41,545 nucleotides of DNA from a virus: positions 1 through 41,545 of the IMG/VR virus record IMGVR_UViG_3300037131_000051; one strand, written 5' to 3'. The notes below the pieces were generated by a model. It was not told where the DNA came from. It was given only the letters and a program-made list of their open reading frames with translations, and searched no databases. Made by a program: the position numbers and the translations under genes. Below are positions 17,273 to 30,547 of this stretch, piece after piece. The stretch's first letter is position 1. Each line of letters begins with the position of its first letter.

Positions 17273-17292
17273 GGTTACCTCCGTAATTTGTG

Positions 17293-17310
17293 AAAGCCAC
17301 CGCTGGCTTT
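17293..17310. promoter_or_regulatory. Perfect inverted repeat between divergent genes
   Basis: AAAGCCA (17293-17299) and TGGCTTT (17304-17310) form a perfect 7-bp inverted repeat with a CCGC centre, between the ATG of the minus-strand gene (17272) and the integrase ATG (17326). It could be an operator controlling integrase expression or a short hairpin in the integrase leader. Confidence 0.4.
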
Positions 17311-17325
17311 TACCGTAGCGCAATC

Positions 17326-18447
17326 ATGCCATCCAGCCAAACGCTTTTATCCCTCCAGCTCGTCCACACTCCCAACCATCACGACTGCCCGGCATGCCGT
17401 GGGTATCTGCAGCGCGCGCAGGCGGCGCCAGTGCACGCCTCCATGACGTTTGCCACGGCCGCGCCGATCTGGCTTGCCGAGCACAGCCCGAAGATCGCGC
17501 ACAAGACGTTTACCGATTACGAGTACTACATCCGGATGCTCGGCCGCTTCTTCGCCGAGCTGCGCCTGGACGAGATCCACGTCGGCCACCTGCAGGCCTA
17601 CGCAGACGAGCGCGCGCAGACCGCCGGCCCCAGCTGCATCAATCACGAACTGAATACCGCGAAGCAGATCATCGCGCGCGCCGGCCTCTGGACAGAGATC
17701 GAGAAGCTCTACAGGCCGCTGCAGGTCCCACGCTGCGATGTAGGCCAGGCGATGGAGCCGGATGCCGAGCGGAATCTCTTTGCGGTCGCCTCGACGGAGC
17801 CGCGCTGGAAGGTCGCCTACTTCTGTTCGATCCTGACGGCCACCACCACCGCAGGCCCATCGGAGATCACGCACCTGCACGTCAATGACATTGAGCTTAC
17901 TGAGAGCGCCGGCGCGCCCATGGGAATGCTGCGCATCCGCGATGGATTGAAGAACGGCCACCGGGAGCGCATCGTGCCGCTCAACGGATCCTCGCAGTGG
18001 GCCGCGGGGCAGCTGCTCAAGCGTTATTACAAAATCTGCCGCAGCGCCAAGATCGAGCCGAACCCGGAGCATTACCTGCTGCCAGGACGCACGCGGTCGA
18101 GCCCCTACGACCCATGGAAGCCGATGGGCTCGTGGAAGAAGGCGTGGGGATCGCTGCGCAAAATGGCCGGGGTGCCGACGCTGCGGATGTACGACCTGAG
18201 ACATCACGCGATCACCAAACTGATGGAGGCAGCCGAGATCAGCGAGCAGACCATCGAGGAAATGGCCGGGCACGCGCTCAGCTCGAGGATGAAGAAAAGG
18301 TACAGCCATATCCGCATGAAACCCAAGTCCGACGCGACCGCGAAGCTCGAACTGACGCTGCCGAAGAAGCCCGCGGCGTCGGTCCCCGCGTGCGAAAGAG
18401 GCTCGATCGAAGGGTTACCCGGCAGAGATTCACAACGACTATCGTGA
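17326..18447 (+). CDS. int: Tyrosine integrase with unusual catalytic residues
   Basis: 373 residues from ATG 17326; a GTG at 17290 would add 12 and would place the inverted repeat inside the gene. The N terminus has a HDCPAC pair, then a SAM-like core-binding domain (about 40-130, MTFATAAPIWLAEHSPKIAHK) and a catalytic domain (about 155-350). Visible active-site parts: a beta-strand Lys in GLKNGHRERIVPL, YDLRHH (R292), GHA (H316) and the nucleophile Y326 in KKRYSH. The first Arg, normally in TGLRxxE, is replaced: TTAGPSE has Gly at that place (177). The His of HxLR is Tyr289. It lies just before a tRNA fragment that is the likely attP, fitting prophage integration. Confidence 0.85.
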   Translation: MPSSQTLLSLQLVHTPNHHDCPACRGYLQRAQAAPVHASMTFATAAPIWLAEHSPKIAHKTFTDYEYYIRMLGRFFAELRLDEIHVGHLQAYADERAQTAGPSCINHELNTAKQIIARAGLWTEIEKLYRPLQVPRCDVGQAMEPDAERNLFAVASTEPRWKVAYFCSILTATTTAGPSEITHLHVNDIELTESAGAPMGMLRIRDGLKNGHRERIVPLNGSSQWAAGQLLKRYYKICRSAKIEPNPEHYLLPGRTRSSPYDPWKPMGSWKKAWGSLRKMAGVPTLRMYDLRHHAITKLMEAAEISEQTIEEMAGHALSSRMKKRYSHIRMKPKSDATAKLELTLPKKPAASVPACERGSIEGLPGRDSQRLS

Positions 18448-27520: not shown

Positions 27521-27694
27521 ATGAGCGAGCAGCCGGAGCAGTTCGAGGATGAGGACGCCGGCGAGGCCTGCGACTCGTCCGAATTGTTCCGCTGGCTGCG
27601 GTTGCAGCCGCCGCGGCGCTGCGGGCTGCGGATATTCCGCACCGGGGCAGAGGTATCAAAATCAAGTTTTGATACGTTTTTTGATTCTTTTTGA
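27521..27694 (+). CDS. Small acidic protein in front of recombinase
   Basis: 57 residues: an acidic start (MSEQPEQFEDEDAGEACDSS), a helical ELFRWLRLQPPRRCGLRIFR segment and an FDTFFDSF tail encoded by the TTTTGAT repeats. The 3' end therefore lies in the recombination-site-like sequence and may have been altered by the cassette. GTGATGAC precedes the ATG; there is no strong ribosome site. Confidence 0.4.
   Translation: MSEQPEQFEDEDAGEACDSSELFRWLRLQPPRRCGLRIFRTGAEVSKSSFDTFFDSF
27654..27674. promoter_or_regulatory. Perfect 8-bp inverted repeat, possible recombinase core site
   Basis: TATCAAAA-TCAAG-TTTTGATA. An 8-bp inverted repeat with a 5-base centre just upstream of a tyrosine recombinase gene has the shape of a core crossover site; it could also be a hairpin. 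It is followed by two more TTTTGAT units. Confidence 0.45.
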
Positions 27695-27717
27695 TTATGG
27701 AACATCTTTCAAACGAG
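27680..27717 (+). repeat. Left imperfect direct repeat flanking the second recombinase
   Basis: TTTGATTCTTT(TT)GATT, then variable bases with GAAC, then TTTCAAACGAG. It aligns with 28235-28271, sharing 11 bp at each end and GATT/GAAC in between. The recombinase ATG (27697) lies inside this copy. Confidence 0.7.
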
Positions 27718-28239
27718 CAATTACGGGAGCTTCTGAGGGTCGCCAAGGCTCATCGGGAGCGCGACTGGCTGATGATTCTGGTGGGCTATTGGCATGGTCT
27801 TCGAGCCAGTGAAGTGGTTGGTATCACAGCTGGTTGCATCGCCGATGGCCACCTGACGGTGGCTCGGTTGAAGGGCTCGCTGAAGACCACGCAGCCGCTG
27901 GTGGAAGACGCGGATCCGCTGCTGAATGAGGCGAAAGGGCTGTTTGATTTCTCGCGCGAAATGCATGGAAATCAAAAACTGTTTCCGATCAGCCGCGTGC
28001 AGTTTTACCGGCTCTTCCGGCGCTACGCGGCGCAGGCCGGGATTGCAAAACACAACGCGCATCCGCACATCCTGAAGCACTCCATTGCTATGCAAACTAT
28101 TAAATCTGCAGGCATTGAGAACGTTCGCCAGTACCTTGGGCACAAGTCCCTGAGCTCTACGGGAGCGTATCTCAAGGTGGATGATGCGAAGGCTTCGGCG
28201 GCGGTGACTGGTGCCTTAGGGGCACGCAAGACTGTTTGA
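27697..28239 (+). CDS. Minimal tyrosine recombinase (catalytic domain only)
   Basis: 180 residues from ATG 27697. No N-terminal core-binding domain; the chain is only the catalytic fold, as in FimB/FimE-type and small integron-like recombinases. Active-site parts: R36 in HGLRASE, a beta-strand Lys in RLKGSLKTT, H124-x-x-K127 in PHILKHS (Lys in place of the usual second Arg), H149 in LGHKSLSS and nucleophile Y158 in GAYLKV. It lies between the zinc-finger gene and terminase, away from the main integrase, and its start and stop are embedded in a pair of imperfect direct repeats. Roles could include cassette mobility, dimer resolution or inversion; no invertible segment is evident. Confidence 0.8.
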   Translation: MEHLSNEQLRELLRVAKAHRERDWLMILVGYWHGLRASEVVGITAGCIADGHLTVARLKGSLKTTQPLVEDADPLLNEAKGLFDFSREMHGNQKLFPISRVQFYRLFRRYAAQAGIAKHNAHPHILKHSIAMQTIKSAGIENVRQYLGHKSLSSTGAYLKVDDAKASAAVTGALGARKTV

Positions 28240-28271
28240 TTCTTTGATTCCCAGAACGCTTTTCAAACGAG
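28235..28271 (+). repeat. Right imperfect direct repeat flanking the second recombinase
   Basis: TTTGATTCTTTGATT, then CCCAGAACGC, then TTTTCAAACGAG, matching 27680-27717. It contains the recombinase stop (28237-28239) and lies just before the small terminase gene. Confidence 0.7.
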
Positions 28272-28282
28272 GGTAATGTTAC

Positions 28283-28597
28283 ATGCCGCGAGGTGGATCG
28301 AGGCCGGGAGCCGGGCGGGCGAAAAAGCCGACGAAGCCGGCGGCGGTGAGCAAGAGCGAGGCGAATGAGATCCTCGACTTCCTCGCGCTCAAGCATACGA
28401 AGCACACCGCGGACTGCTGGTGCCTGAAGTGCCGGTGGCGGAATCTCTCCCGGGCGCAGGATCTTCGGCTGCGGTTCCAGGTAGAGAAGTCGCTCCTCGA
28501 TCGCGTGCTCGGCCTGCCGGCCCAGACTATCCAGCAGAACCATTCCGGGACCCTGACGCTGGAGCAACTGGTCTGCGGGGCCGGTAACGAGGAATGA
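28283..28597 (+). CDS. terS: Small terminase subunit (putative)
   Basis: 104 residues. The N-terminal MPRGGSRPGAGRAKKPTKPA motif is common in small terminase subunits and other phage DNA-binding proteins. Residues about 45-55 hold CWCLKC; a helical C-terminal part (LRLRFQVEKSLLDRVLGLPA) may mediate oligomerisation. It overlaps the large terminase gene by four bases (ATGA), the usual arrangement. Role: recognises the packaging site and regulates the motor. Shorter than many TerS proteins, so assignment rests mainly on position and N terminus. Confidence 0.6.
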   Translation: MPRGGSRPGAGRAKKPTKPAAVSKSEANEILDFLALKHTKHTADCWCLKCRWRNLSRAQDLRLRFQVEKSLLDRVLGLPAQTIQQNHSGTLTLEQLVCGAGNEE

Positions 28598-30078
28598 GTA
28601 CCGCCGCGGCCAAGATCCGCGAGTGGCGCCTGGATCCGGTCAAGTTTGTAAGGGAATGCTTCCGCGCCGAACCAGATGCGTGGCAGCTCGACGTCTTGCG
28701 GCTCATGGGTGTCCCTGGGCGCAAGCGCATTGCCATGAAGGCCTGCGCGGGCCCTGGAAAAACTGCCGTGCTCGCGTGGGCTGGATGGCATCGCCTGGCA
28801 TGCTTTGCGGCGCCCAACGAGCACCCCAAGGGCTCCGCGGTATCAATTACGGCGGACAACCTGCGCGACAACCTCTGGGCGGAGATGGCCCGGTGGCAGA
28901 ACCAGTCGCCTTTCCTGCTGAACGCGTTCGTGTGGAACAAGGAAAGGATCACGGCCAAGGATCACGCCGAGACCTGGTTCCTGGCGGCGAAGGGCTGGGC
29001 GAAGTCGTCCGACACCGAAACGGTCGGCCGAACGCTGAGCGGCCAGCACTCAAGGTTCCCGTTCTACCTGATTGACGAGTCGGGCGACATTCCCCCACAG
29101 ATGGTCCGGAGCGCCGAGCAGGGCCTCACCAGCTGCGAGGACGGCCTGATCATCACCGCGGGCAATACGACGAGCCAGACGGGCCTGCTGTACGAGGTTA
29201 CGACCCGTTCCAGGGAGAACTGGGAAGTGGTCTCGATCACTGCGGACCCGGACGACCCGAAACGGACGCCACGCGTCGACCTGGAGTGGGCCAAGAACCA
29301 GATTGCGCTGTACGGCAGGGAGAATCCCTGGGTGATGGCCTACATTCTTGGCCTCTTCCCGCCTGGCAGCATCAACGCGCTGCTGAGCTCCGACGAGGTT
29401 GAGCGGGCCATGAAGCTGCACCCGCGGCCTGAAGAGTATCAGTGGGCGCAGAAGCGGCTGGGCGTCGATGTGGCGCGGTTCGGAGACGACCGGACGGTGA
29501 TCTTCCCCAGGCAGGGATGTGTGGCGTTTACGCCGATCATCATGCGCCATGCGCGCGACTCCTCCGTTTCGGTGGACATCGCGGCGCGGACGCTGGCTAA
29601 AAAGTTTGAGTGGATGCGCGAGGACGACAGCTCGCAGGTGGTGTGCGAGACCGATGAGGTCCTGATCTTCCTCGATGACACGGTGGGATGGGCCCACGGC
29701 AGCATCGATGTGATGCGGGCCGCAGGGCACGACGTTTACGCGATCGCGTTCGACAAGCCTGCAAATGATCCCAGGTACCTCAACATGAGGGCCGAGATGT
29801 GGATGAAGATGGCCGACTGGGTAAAGGCCGGTGGAAGCCTGCCGCCGATCCCCGAGCTGATCAGCGAGTTGTGCAGCCCGACCTACTTCTTTACGAAGGG
29901 CAAGTTCCAAATTGAGAGCAAAGACCAGATCAAGAAGAGGCTCGGTAAGAGCCCCGACTTGGCGGACGCGCTGGCGCTGACGTTTGCTATTCCCGATCGG
30001 CCGAGCCGCATGACGAAACTGCCGGGGATGCGCCAGAGCAGGGCACCTAAGACCTATGACCCGTACGCTTCGATATGA
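28594..30078 (+). CDS. terL: Large terminase subunit
   Basis: 494 residues. ATPase domain: Walker A ACAGPGKT at 50-57, Walker B FYLIDES around 158-163 with the catalytic Glu162, and a coupling ITAGNTTSQTG motif at about 187. RuvC/RNase H-like nuclease domain: GVDVARFGDDRT (D292) and SPDLADALAL (D455, D458) as metal ligands. Full length for the family. It packages the DNA through the portal encoded at 32179. Follows TerS with a 4-base overlap; a GNAT gene starts five bases after its stop. Confidence 0.95.
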   Translation: MSTAAAKIREWRLDPVKFVRECFRAEPDAWQLDVLRLMGVPGRKRIAMKACAGPGKTAVLAWAGWHRLACFAAPNEHPKGSAVSITADNLRDNLWAEMARWQNQSPFLLNAFVWNKERITAKDHAETWFLAAKGWAKSSDTETVGRTLSGQHSRFPFYLIDESGDIPPQMVRSAEQGLTSCEDGLIITAGNTTSQTGLLYEVTTRSRENWEVVSITADPDDPKRTPRVDLEWAKNQIALYGRENPWVMAYILGLFPPGSINALLSSDEVERAMKLHPRPEEYQWAQKRLGVDVARFGDDRTVIFPRQGCVAFTPIIMRHARDSSVSVDIAARTLAKKFEWMREDDSSQVVCETDEVLIFLDDTVGWAHGSIDVMRAAGHDVYAIAFDKPANDPRYLNMRAEMWMKMADWVKAGGSLPPIPELISELCSPTYFFTKGKFQIESKDQIKKRLGKSPDLADALALTFAIPDRPSRMTKLPGMRQSRAPKTYDPYASI

Positions 30079-30082
30079 GCTT

Positions 30083-30547
30083 ATGACGATGACCACGGAA
30101 ATCCGACGCGTAAACTACCGCGACATTCTTGACGCGCCCAACGCGCAGCAGCTGATCGACGAGTACGGTGCGGAGTGCTCCATCCCGCTGATTGGCAAGA
30201 TCGACCAGCAGCCCCAGATCTACGCAGCCCTCGAAGCCGCGGGCATCTTTCACTGCTTTGGCGTGTACGCCGGCGACGAGCTGGTGGGCTTTGCATCCAT
30301 CTTGGCATCAGTCCTCCCCCATTACGGCCAGAAGGTGGCGTCGGTCGAATCTCTGTTTCTGGCATCAGCCTACCGGCCAGGGTGCACCGGGAAAGCTCTG
30401 ATGGCGGCTATCGAGTCGCACGCGCGTTTGCTCGAATGCGTTGCCATCGTGTACACCGCGCCGATCAACAGCGCGCTCGCCATGGTGCTGCTGGCCACCA
30501 AGCCATACGCACTCACTAACGCCGTGTTCTGTAAGAGGCTGGCGTGA
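30083..30547 (+). CDS. GNAT-type acetyltransferase-like protein
   Basis: 154 residues from ATG 30083, five bases after the terminase stop; an earlier in-frame ATG (30056) lies within terL. The N-terminal TTEIRRVNYRDIL strand and helix, FGVYAGDELVGFASIL (beta4), KVASVESLFLASAYRPGCTG (beta4-alpha3 with an acetyl-CoA-type loop, here RPGCTGKAL in place of RxxGxG) and AIVYTAPINSAL fit the GNAT fold. Such genes near terminase are common in podoviruses; the substrate is unknown. GTGA overlap with the next gene. Confidence 0.75.
   Translation: MTMTTEIRRVNYRDILDAPNAQQLIDEYGAECSIPLIGKIDQQPQIYAALEAAGIFHCFGVYAGDELVGFASILASVLPHYGQKVASVESLFLASAYRPGCTGKALMAAIESHARLLECVAIVYTAPINSALAMVLLATKPYALTNAVFCKRLA

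Follow-up and report, generated by a model that had tools for sequence, protein, structure and literature searches.

A single-domain tyrosine recombinase and its probable palindromic core site in the small terminase leader of a probable acidobacterial phage

A very short tyrosine recombinase gene that begins and ends within two similar repeats, directly in front of the terminase genes of a phage, raises the question of whether it is a self-mobile unit or an enzyme kept beside the site on which it acts. We addressed this question in the IMG/VR virus record IMGVR_UViG_3300037131_000051, whose positions 1 to 41,545 (41,545 bp) form the window analysed here (Table 1). The phage is podovirus-like, encoding a head-tail connector (PF12236, at 32179) and an internal virion protein, and a GNAT acetyltransferase-like gene (30056-30547) lies between terL and the head-tail genes. 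A single-sequence query retrieved 16 relatives of the recombinase in viral contigs and an alignment query 62; since further relatives occur in acidobacterial genomes and in the Tunturiibacter phage Tunturi_3, the host is probably an acidobacterium and the phage a virus of soil Acidobacteria.

Table 1. Features of the recombinase and terminase region, and the second tyrosine recombinase of the phage
Feature	Coordinates	Strand	Basis or remark
Full-length tyrosine integrase, 385 aa, second tyrosine recombinase of the phage	17290..18447	+	phrog_1, 3e-29
IR0, 25-nt palindromic element GGTATCAAAATCAAGTTTTGATACG, probable core recombination site	27652..27676	+	30-site covarying family; single strong copy in the window
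Left TTTGATT-type element, overlapping the recombinase start	27680..27717	+	Heptamers 27680-27686 and 27690-27696; TTTGA-N14-TCAAA at 27690-27713; resembles the terS-proximal element
Catalytic-only tyrosine recombinase, TTG start (or ATG 27697)	27691..28239	+	PF00589, E 2e-20; PHROG integrase
Right TTTGATT-type element, just 5' of terS	28235..28271	+	Heptamers 28235-28241 and 28243-28249
terS, small terminase subunit, N terminus MPRGGSRPGAGRAKK	28283..28597	+	Assigned from position and motif
terL, large terminase subunit	28594..30078	+	phrog_2, 1.3e-21

The preliminary description of this DNA had proposed a catalytic-only tyrosine recombinase, and the profile searches agree, as all matches of the protein (180-182 aa) fall within the catalytic domain. 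It belongs by catalytic-domain homology to the PF00589 superfamily, with R36, K59, H124, H149 and Y158 conserved. To clamp a site, tyrosine recombinases normally depend on a core-binding domain; this N-terminal domain, a trait of simple integrases and Xer proteins, is missing from the 180 aa protein. The second catalytic arginine (Arg II) is replaced by Lys127, giving an HxxK motif (H124 at 28066-28068, K127 at 28075-28077). The motif is present as first described, but it is not the departure from the norm that it had been taken for: R36, K59, K127, H128, H149 and Y158 are invariant among 33 aligned relatives, so that HxxK is a trait of the whole closer family (33/33), which rules it out as a sign of decay. 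The papers searched contained no account of HxxK recombinases. The AlphaFold (AF2) model reached a pLDDT of 90.8, with the loop preceding the tyrosine as its poorly modelled part, and matched the catalytic domains of XerA, lambda Int, XerH and Brujita Int (5vfz). No Shine-Dalgarno sequence was seen ahead of the gene (27660-27700), whose start falls inside a heptamer repeat, and its expression may be weak or leaderless.

Comparison with known enzymes places the protein among several familiar layouts. Like the Int of mycobacteriophage Brujita, it is a small phage recombinase with no arm-binding domain and with a matching catalytic fold, but Brujita Int has a core-binding domain, whereas the window protein consists of the catalytic domain only and carries HxxK. 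XerH and XerA are among its best fold and sequence matches, although Xer recombinases have about 350 aa and the window protein has 180 aa, no N-terminal domain, a lysine for Arg II and a phage location. The FimB/FimE invertases share its approximate length and catalytic-only layout (NCBIfam PRK09870/PRK09871 matches). Fim-type inversion was ruled out, the window having one strong IR0 and no inverted site pair around an invertible segment. The protein gp84 of Tunturi_3 (PP885686) is a catalytic-only relative with 38% identity and the same HxxK, but it lies in a different gene neighbourhood without terS-type repeats. The Tunturi viruses showed lytic cycles despite their integrase or recombinase genes (PMC11924767).

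A perfect inverted repeat had been noticed just ahead of the left repeat, and we confirmed it at 27654-27674 (TATCAAAA-TCAAG-TTTTGATA) as the sole perfect 8-5-8 palindrome in the window. On its own this is weak evidence, because the window holds ten perfect 8-bp palindromes with spacers of 3-11 bp. From the sequence before or after the recombinase gene we built a family of 30 loci in which the element, here called IR0, is gapless and 25 nt long, with arms of 7 and a centre of 11. The arms differ widely between loci (GGTAACA/TGTTACC, GGTCCCA/TGGGACC and CTTCACA/TGTGAAG; GGTATCA/TGATACG in the window) and co-vary over the 30 sites: 86% of arm cells pair, against 65% after shuffling, and arm covariation was 0.538 against 0.162 +/- 0.031, none of 500 shuffles reaching the score, which is inflated by the choice of some sites for their palindromicity. 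The family is supported despite this selection, because C6 and G20 are invariant, G15 is conserved and held-out sites agree: IR0 was the top site in L039/G429 and L042/G431, both outside the model set, and the held-out L306 also supports it. The window copy scored 30.8, compared with a shuffled top of about 17. In scans of 12 whole or half contigs IR0 was also the top-scoring site in 11, and it almost always adjoined the recombinase gene. It ranked second in G416, and in G434 it is close to the end of the contig and 836 bp away from the gene. Scanning with the present IR0 model gave no clear site in the distant relatives L016, L058 and L122-L126. Both the module and the covariation of IR0 are established by computation, and we conclude that IR0 belongs to the recombinase and is probably its site, at which binding and cleavage are predicted.

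A stem that covaries around a conserved loop could also be an RNA hairpin, acting as a terminator or in translational control of the recombinase and not in recombination, and several phages do have a T-run after the stem (GGTCCCA..TGGGACC TTTTTT in L032, for example). We regard this as highly doubtful. The stems are AT-rich, the element lies upstream or downstream of the gene depending on the locus and has no T-run in the downstream cases (L030, L034, L050), chromosomal relatives carry extra unpaired half sites, and the Rfam search returned nothing for IR0. The unpaired third half site and the variable placement thus favour a DNA site bound by protein. As a separate observation, one locus has, just past IR0, a REP-like palindrome (GGGCTCCCGG..GTCGAGCCCGGGAGAT) of which several acidobacterial genomes contain dispersed copies (L050:4709-4750; L519-L524), and a sequence similar to it, GTCGAC..GAGCCCGGGAGAT, occurs 3' of the recombinase gene in L002.

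The imperfect repeats of about 37 bp at the start and stop of the gene likewise proved to be real and beyond chance. Their local score was 20, compared with a mean of 9.2 and a maximum of 19.5 in 5000 dinucleotide shuffles, and such a score occurred in 1 of 4978 random window pairs. The TTTGATT heptamer occurs six times in the 41.5 kb window, always within 27680-28249, and similar repeats stand at both gene ends in relatives with the recombinase ahead of terS. The preliminary description had taken these repeats for crossover products bounding a self-mobile unit of minimal size, about 555 bp, a reading with which the position of the gene start and stop inside them agrees, as does the finding that the best match of the left copy of the window is its own right copy. 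Several results contradict it. The right copy precedes terS in phages that have no recombinase gene, and the repeats are absent both where the recombinase lies beside another terS type (L051, with IR0 present and heptamers absent) and where it lies away from terS (L030, L034, L039, L050). The two copies also look like an old motif held in common, with slight concerted change at most: the score was 12.9 for pairs from one phage, 12.0 for pairs from different phages and 7.8 when shuffled (p = 0.018 for own over cross). A search for empty sites in related phages gave none that was syntenic, the recombinase-free terL relatives having other terS types or leaders. As the repeats track terS and not the recombinase, and the search for a syntenic empty site gave none, we rejected the self-mobile cassette, to which we attach very little probability.

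To what, then, do the repeats belong? A scan with the motif alone also matched recombinase-free contigs, and in the GC-rich ones the motif was directly 5' of a terS with the N terminus M-x-RGGxRxGAGRxxK. The terS of the window has no Pfam match and no PHROG match; homologues of it stand immediately 3' of the recombinase gene in L019-L022. We assembled 105 viral contigs (L381-L497, L285, L307) chosen solely by a GGxRxGAGRK-type terS motif, and TTTGATT or AATCAAA was found within 100 bp upstream of terS in 61 of them, compared with 1.5% of random windows. In the 50 bp that precede the terS start there are 97 heptamers, whereas the other 25 bp bins have 0-7 each. Unrelated phages thus keep the motif directly 5' of terS, a linkage established by computation. 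This linkage, the absence of the repeats in L051 and away from terS, and the lack of a syntenic empty site indicate that the repeats belong to terS, and they flank the recombinase gene because that gene sits in the terS leader.

The heptamers probably serve TerS as a packaging site or terS as an operator. Their position and phasing, together with what TerS sites do in cos/pac phages (PMC11331095, PMC7672466), point to packaging. Operators or promoter parts common to the recombinase gene and terS, serving co-regulation and not packaging, are a real if tentative possibility: heptamers occur both at the start of the recombinase gene and no more than 50 bp from that of terS, and promoter-like hexamers in the region exceed those in shuffles (5 vs 0.5). 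The hexamer matches are weak, however, and TerS-binding subsites better account for several phased copies next to terS that go with a single terS type. The GGxRxGAGRK motif at the TerS N terminus resembles an AT-hook and could bind the heptamers.

Our best reading is therefore that the locus is a variant of the simple tyrosine recombinase with its single core site (att-, dif- or lox-like), lodged in the terS leader, and we consider it fairly probable that it is a module for conservative site-specific recombination at IR0, accompanied by terS-linked heptamers that are not its substrates. We infer binding, cleavage and biological role from sequence as follows. The module would have two parts, the catalytic-only recombinase and its own 25 bp core site a short way 5' of the gene. 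Two protomers would bind the arms of IR0 and cut through Tyr158 within the roughly 11 bp centre, R36, K59, H124, K127 and H149 completing the active site, and strands would then be exchanged with a second copy. The direct repeats, as a terS-linked heptamer element, would take no part as recombinase substrates. The second copy could be a host attB, leading to integration and excision, and we judge this likelier than a sister IR0 within a dimeric, concatemeric or redundant genome.

Simple tyrosine recombinases can integrate phages (PMC8138268), and integration is favoured here because one contig, G425, contains a junction-like pair of sites followed by an acidobacterial gene. In this contig (L502:13852 and 14518) the recombinase gene and IR0 are followed, 666 bp on, by a second site that shares 17 nt of core plus right arm (ATTTCGTTTTGTTACCT) and differs from IR0 in its left flank; the 666 bp segment holds two small ORFs, and the gene after the second site belongs to a family present in 27 of 299 acidobacterial genomes. 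No second integrase was found in this partial contig. A query with the commonest or consensus IR0, allowing up to 3 mismatches, matched once, with 3 mismatches and in one genome, among 399 acidobacterial genomes, so that no convincing attB was established. Host DNA was also sought beyond IR0 in G414 and around G002:C66; the DNA matches in one of these searches were mostly the dispersed REP-like palindrome and not a host locus. Integration into a host attB thus has, in our estimate, slightly less than an even chance, and it is somewhat likelier than monomer resolution.

Resolution would follow the scheme of Cre/lox or of a single Xer with dif, two IR0 copies being recombined near the packaging site to resolve dimers or concatemers or to circularise the incoming genome, while the full-length integrase integrates. 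XerS/difSL and XerH/difH also pair one recombinase with a palindromic site beside its own gene (PMC5357621), and IR0 is likewise single-copy and adjoins its gene. Half of the phages have another integrase: of 26 phage contigs whose small recombinase is intact, 13 encode a full-length one. The window is among these 13, and there the small recombinase is ruled out as the sole integrase. The attB search is in keeping with resolution too, and clusters of near-identical contigs show no switch in the left flank of IR0. Resolution is nevertheless rather unlikely, given that the G425 pair resembles an att hybrid beside an acidobacterial gene and that these contigs have no known terminal redundancy. 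In one contig with an intact full-length integrase (L084:2720-2980), a degraded recombinase was seen with IR0 and the terS leader kept.

In phage P1, the Cre recombinase, its single palindromic loxP site and the packaging region share one neighbourhood. The window locus brings together the same three elements, although Cre has an N-terminal domain that the window recombinase lacks, and cyclisation of the window phage is a proposal only.

In chromosomal relatives the IR0-type element has a centre of 12 nt, and a further half site, which is unpaired, stands about 75 bp from it. Genome G183 has three such recombinase, IR0 and half-site copies (L257, L258, L259), and in L258 a cargo of about 990 bp lies exactly between the recombinase stop and IR0, where L259 has none. 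More than one IR0-like site follows the recombinase gene in G427 and G431. The cargo difference, these multiple sites and the 666 bp segment leading to the 17-nt half copy in G425 would fit a one-domain, integron-like platform for gene capture in acidobacterial phages and chromosomes, with single genes inserted beside the palindrome, a role that we consider improbable. Separately, an IR0-type palindrome with a half site and no recombinase was observed in genome G107 (L256:3556-3579), near an apparent tRNA 3' end fragment that ARAGORN did not call.

Repeats beside terS need not mark a mobile element, and for a very common type of terS the linked heptamer gives a sequence handle on its site of packaging or regulation. 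A conserved family without a core-binding domain, with lysine for the second catalytic arginine and with co-changing palindrome arms, would give a minimal recombinase, and the recombinase and IR0 family would supply ready pairs of enzyme and site for studies of specificity.
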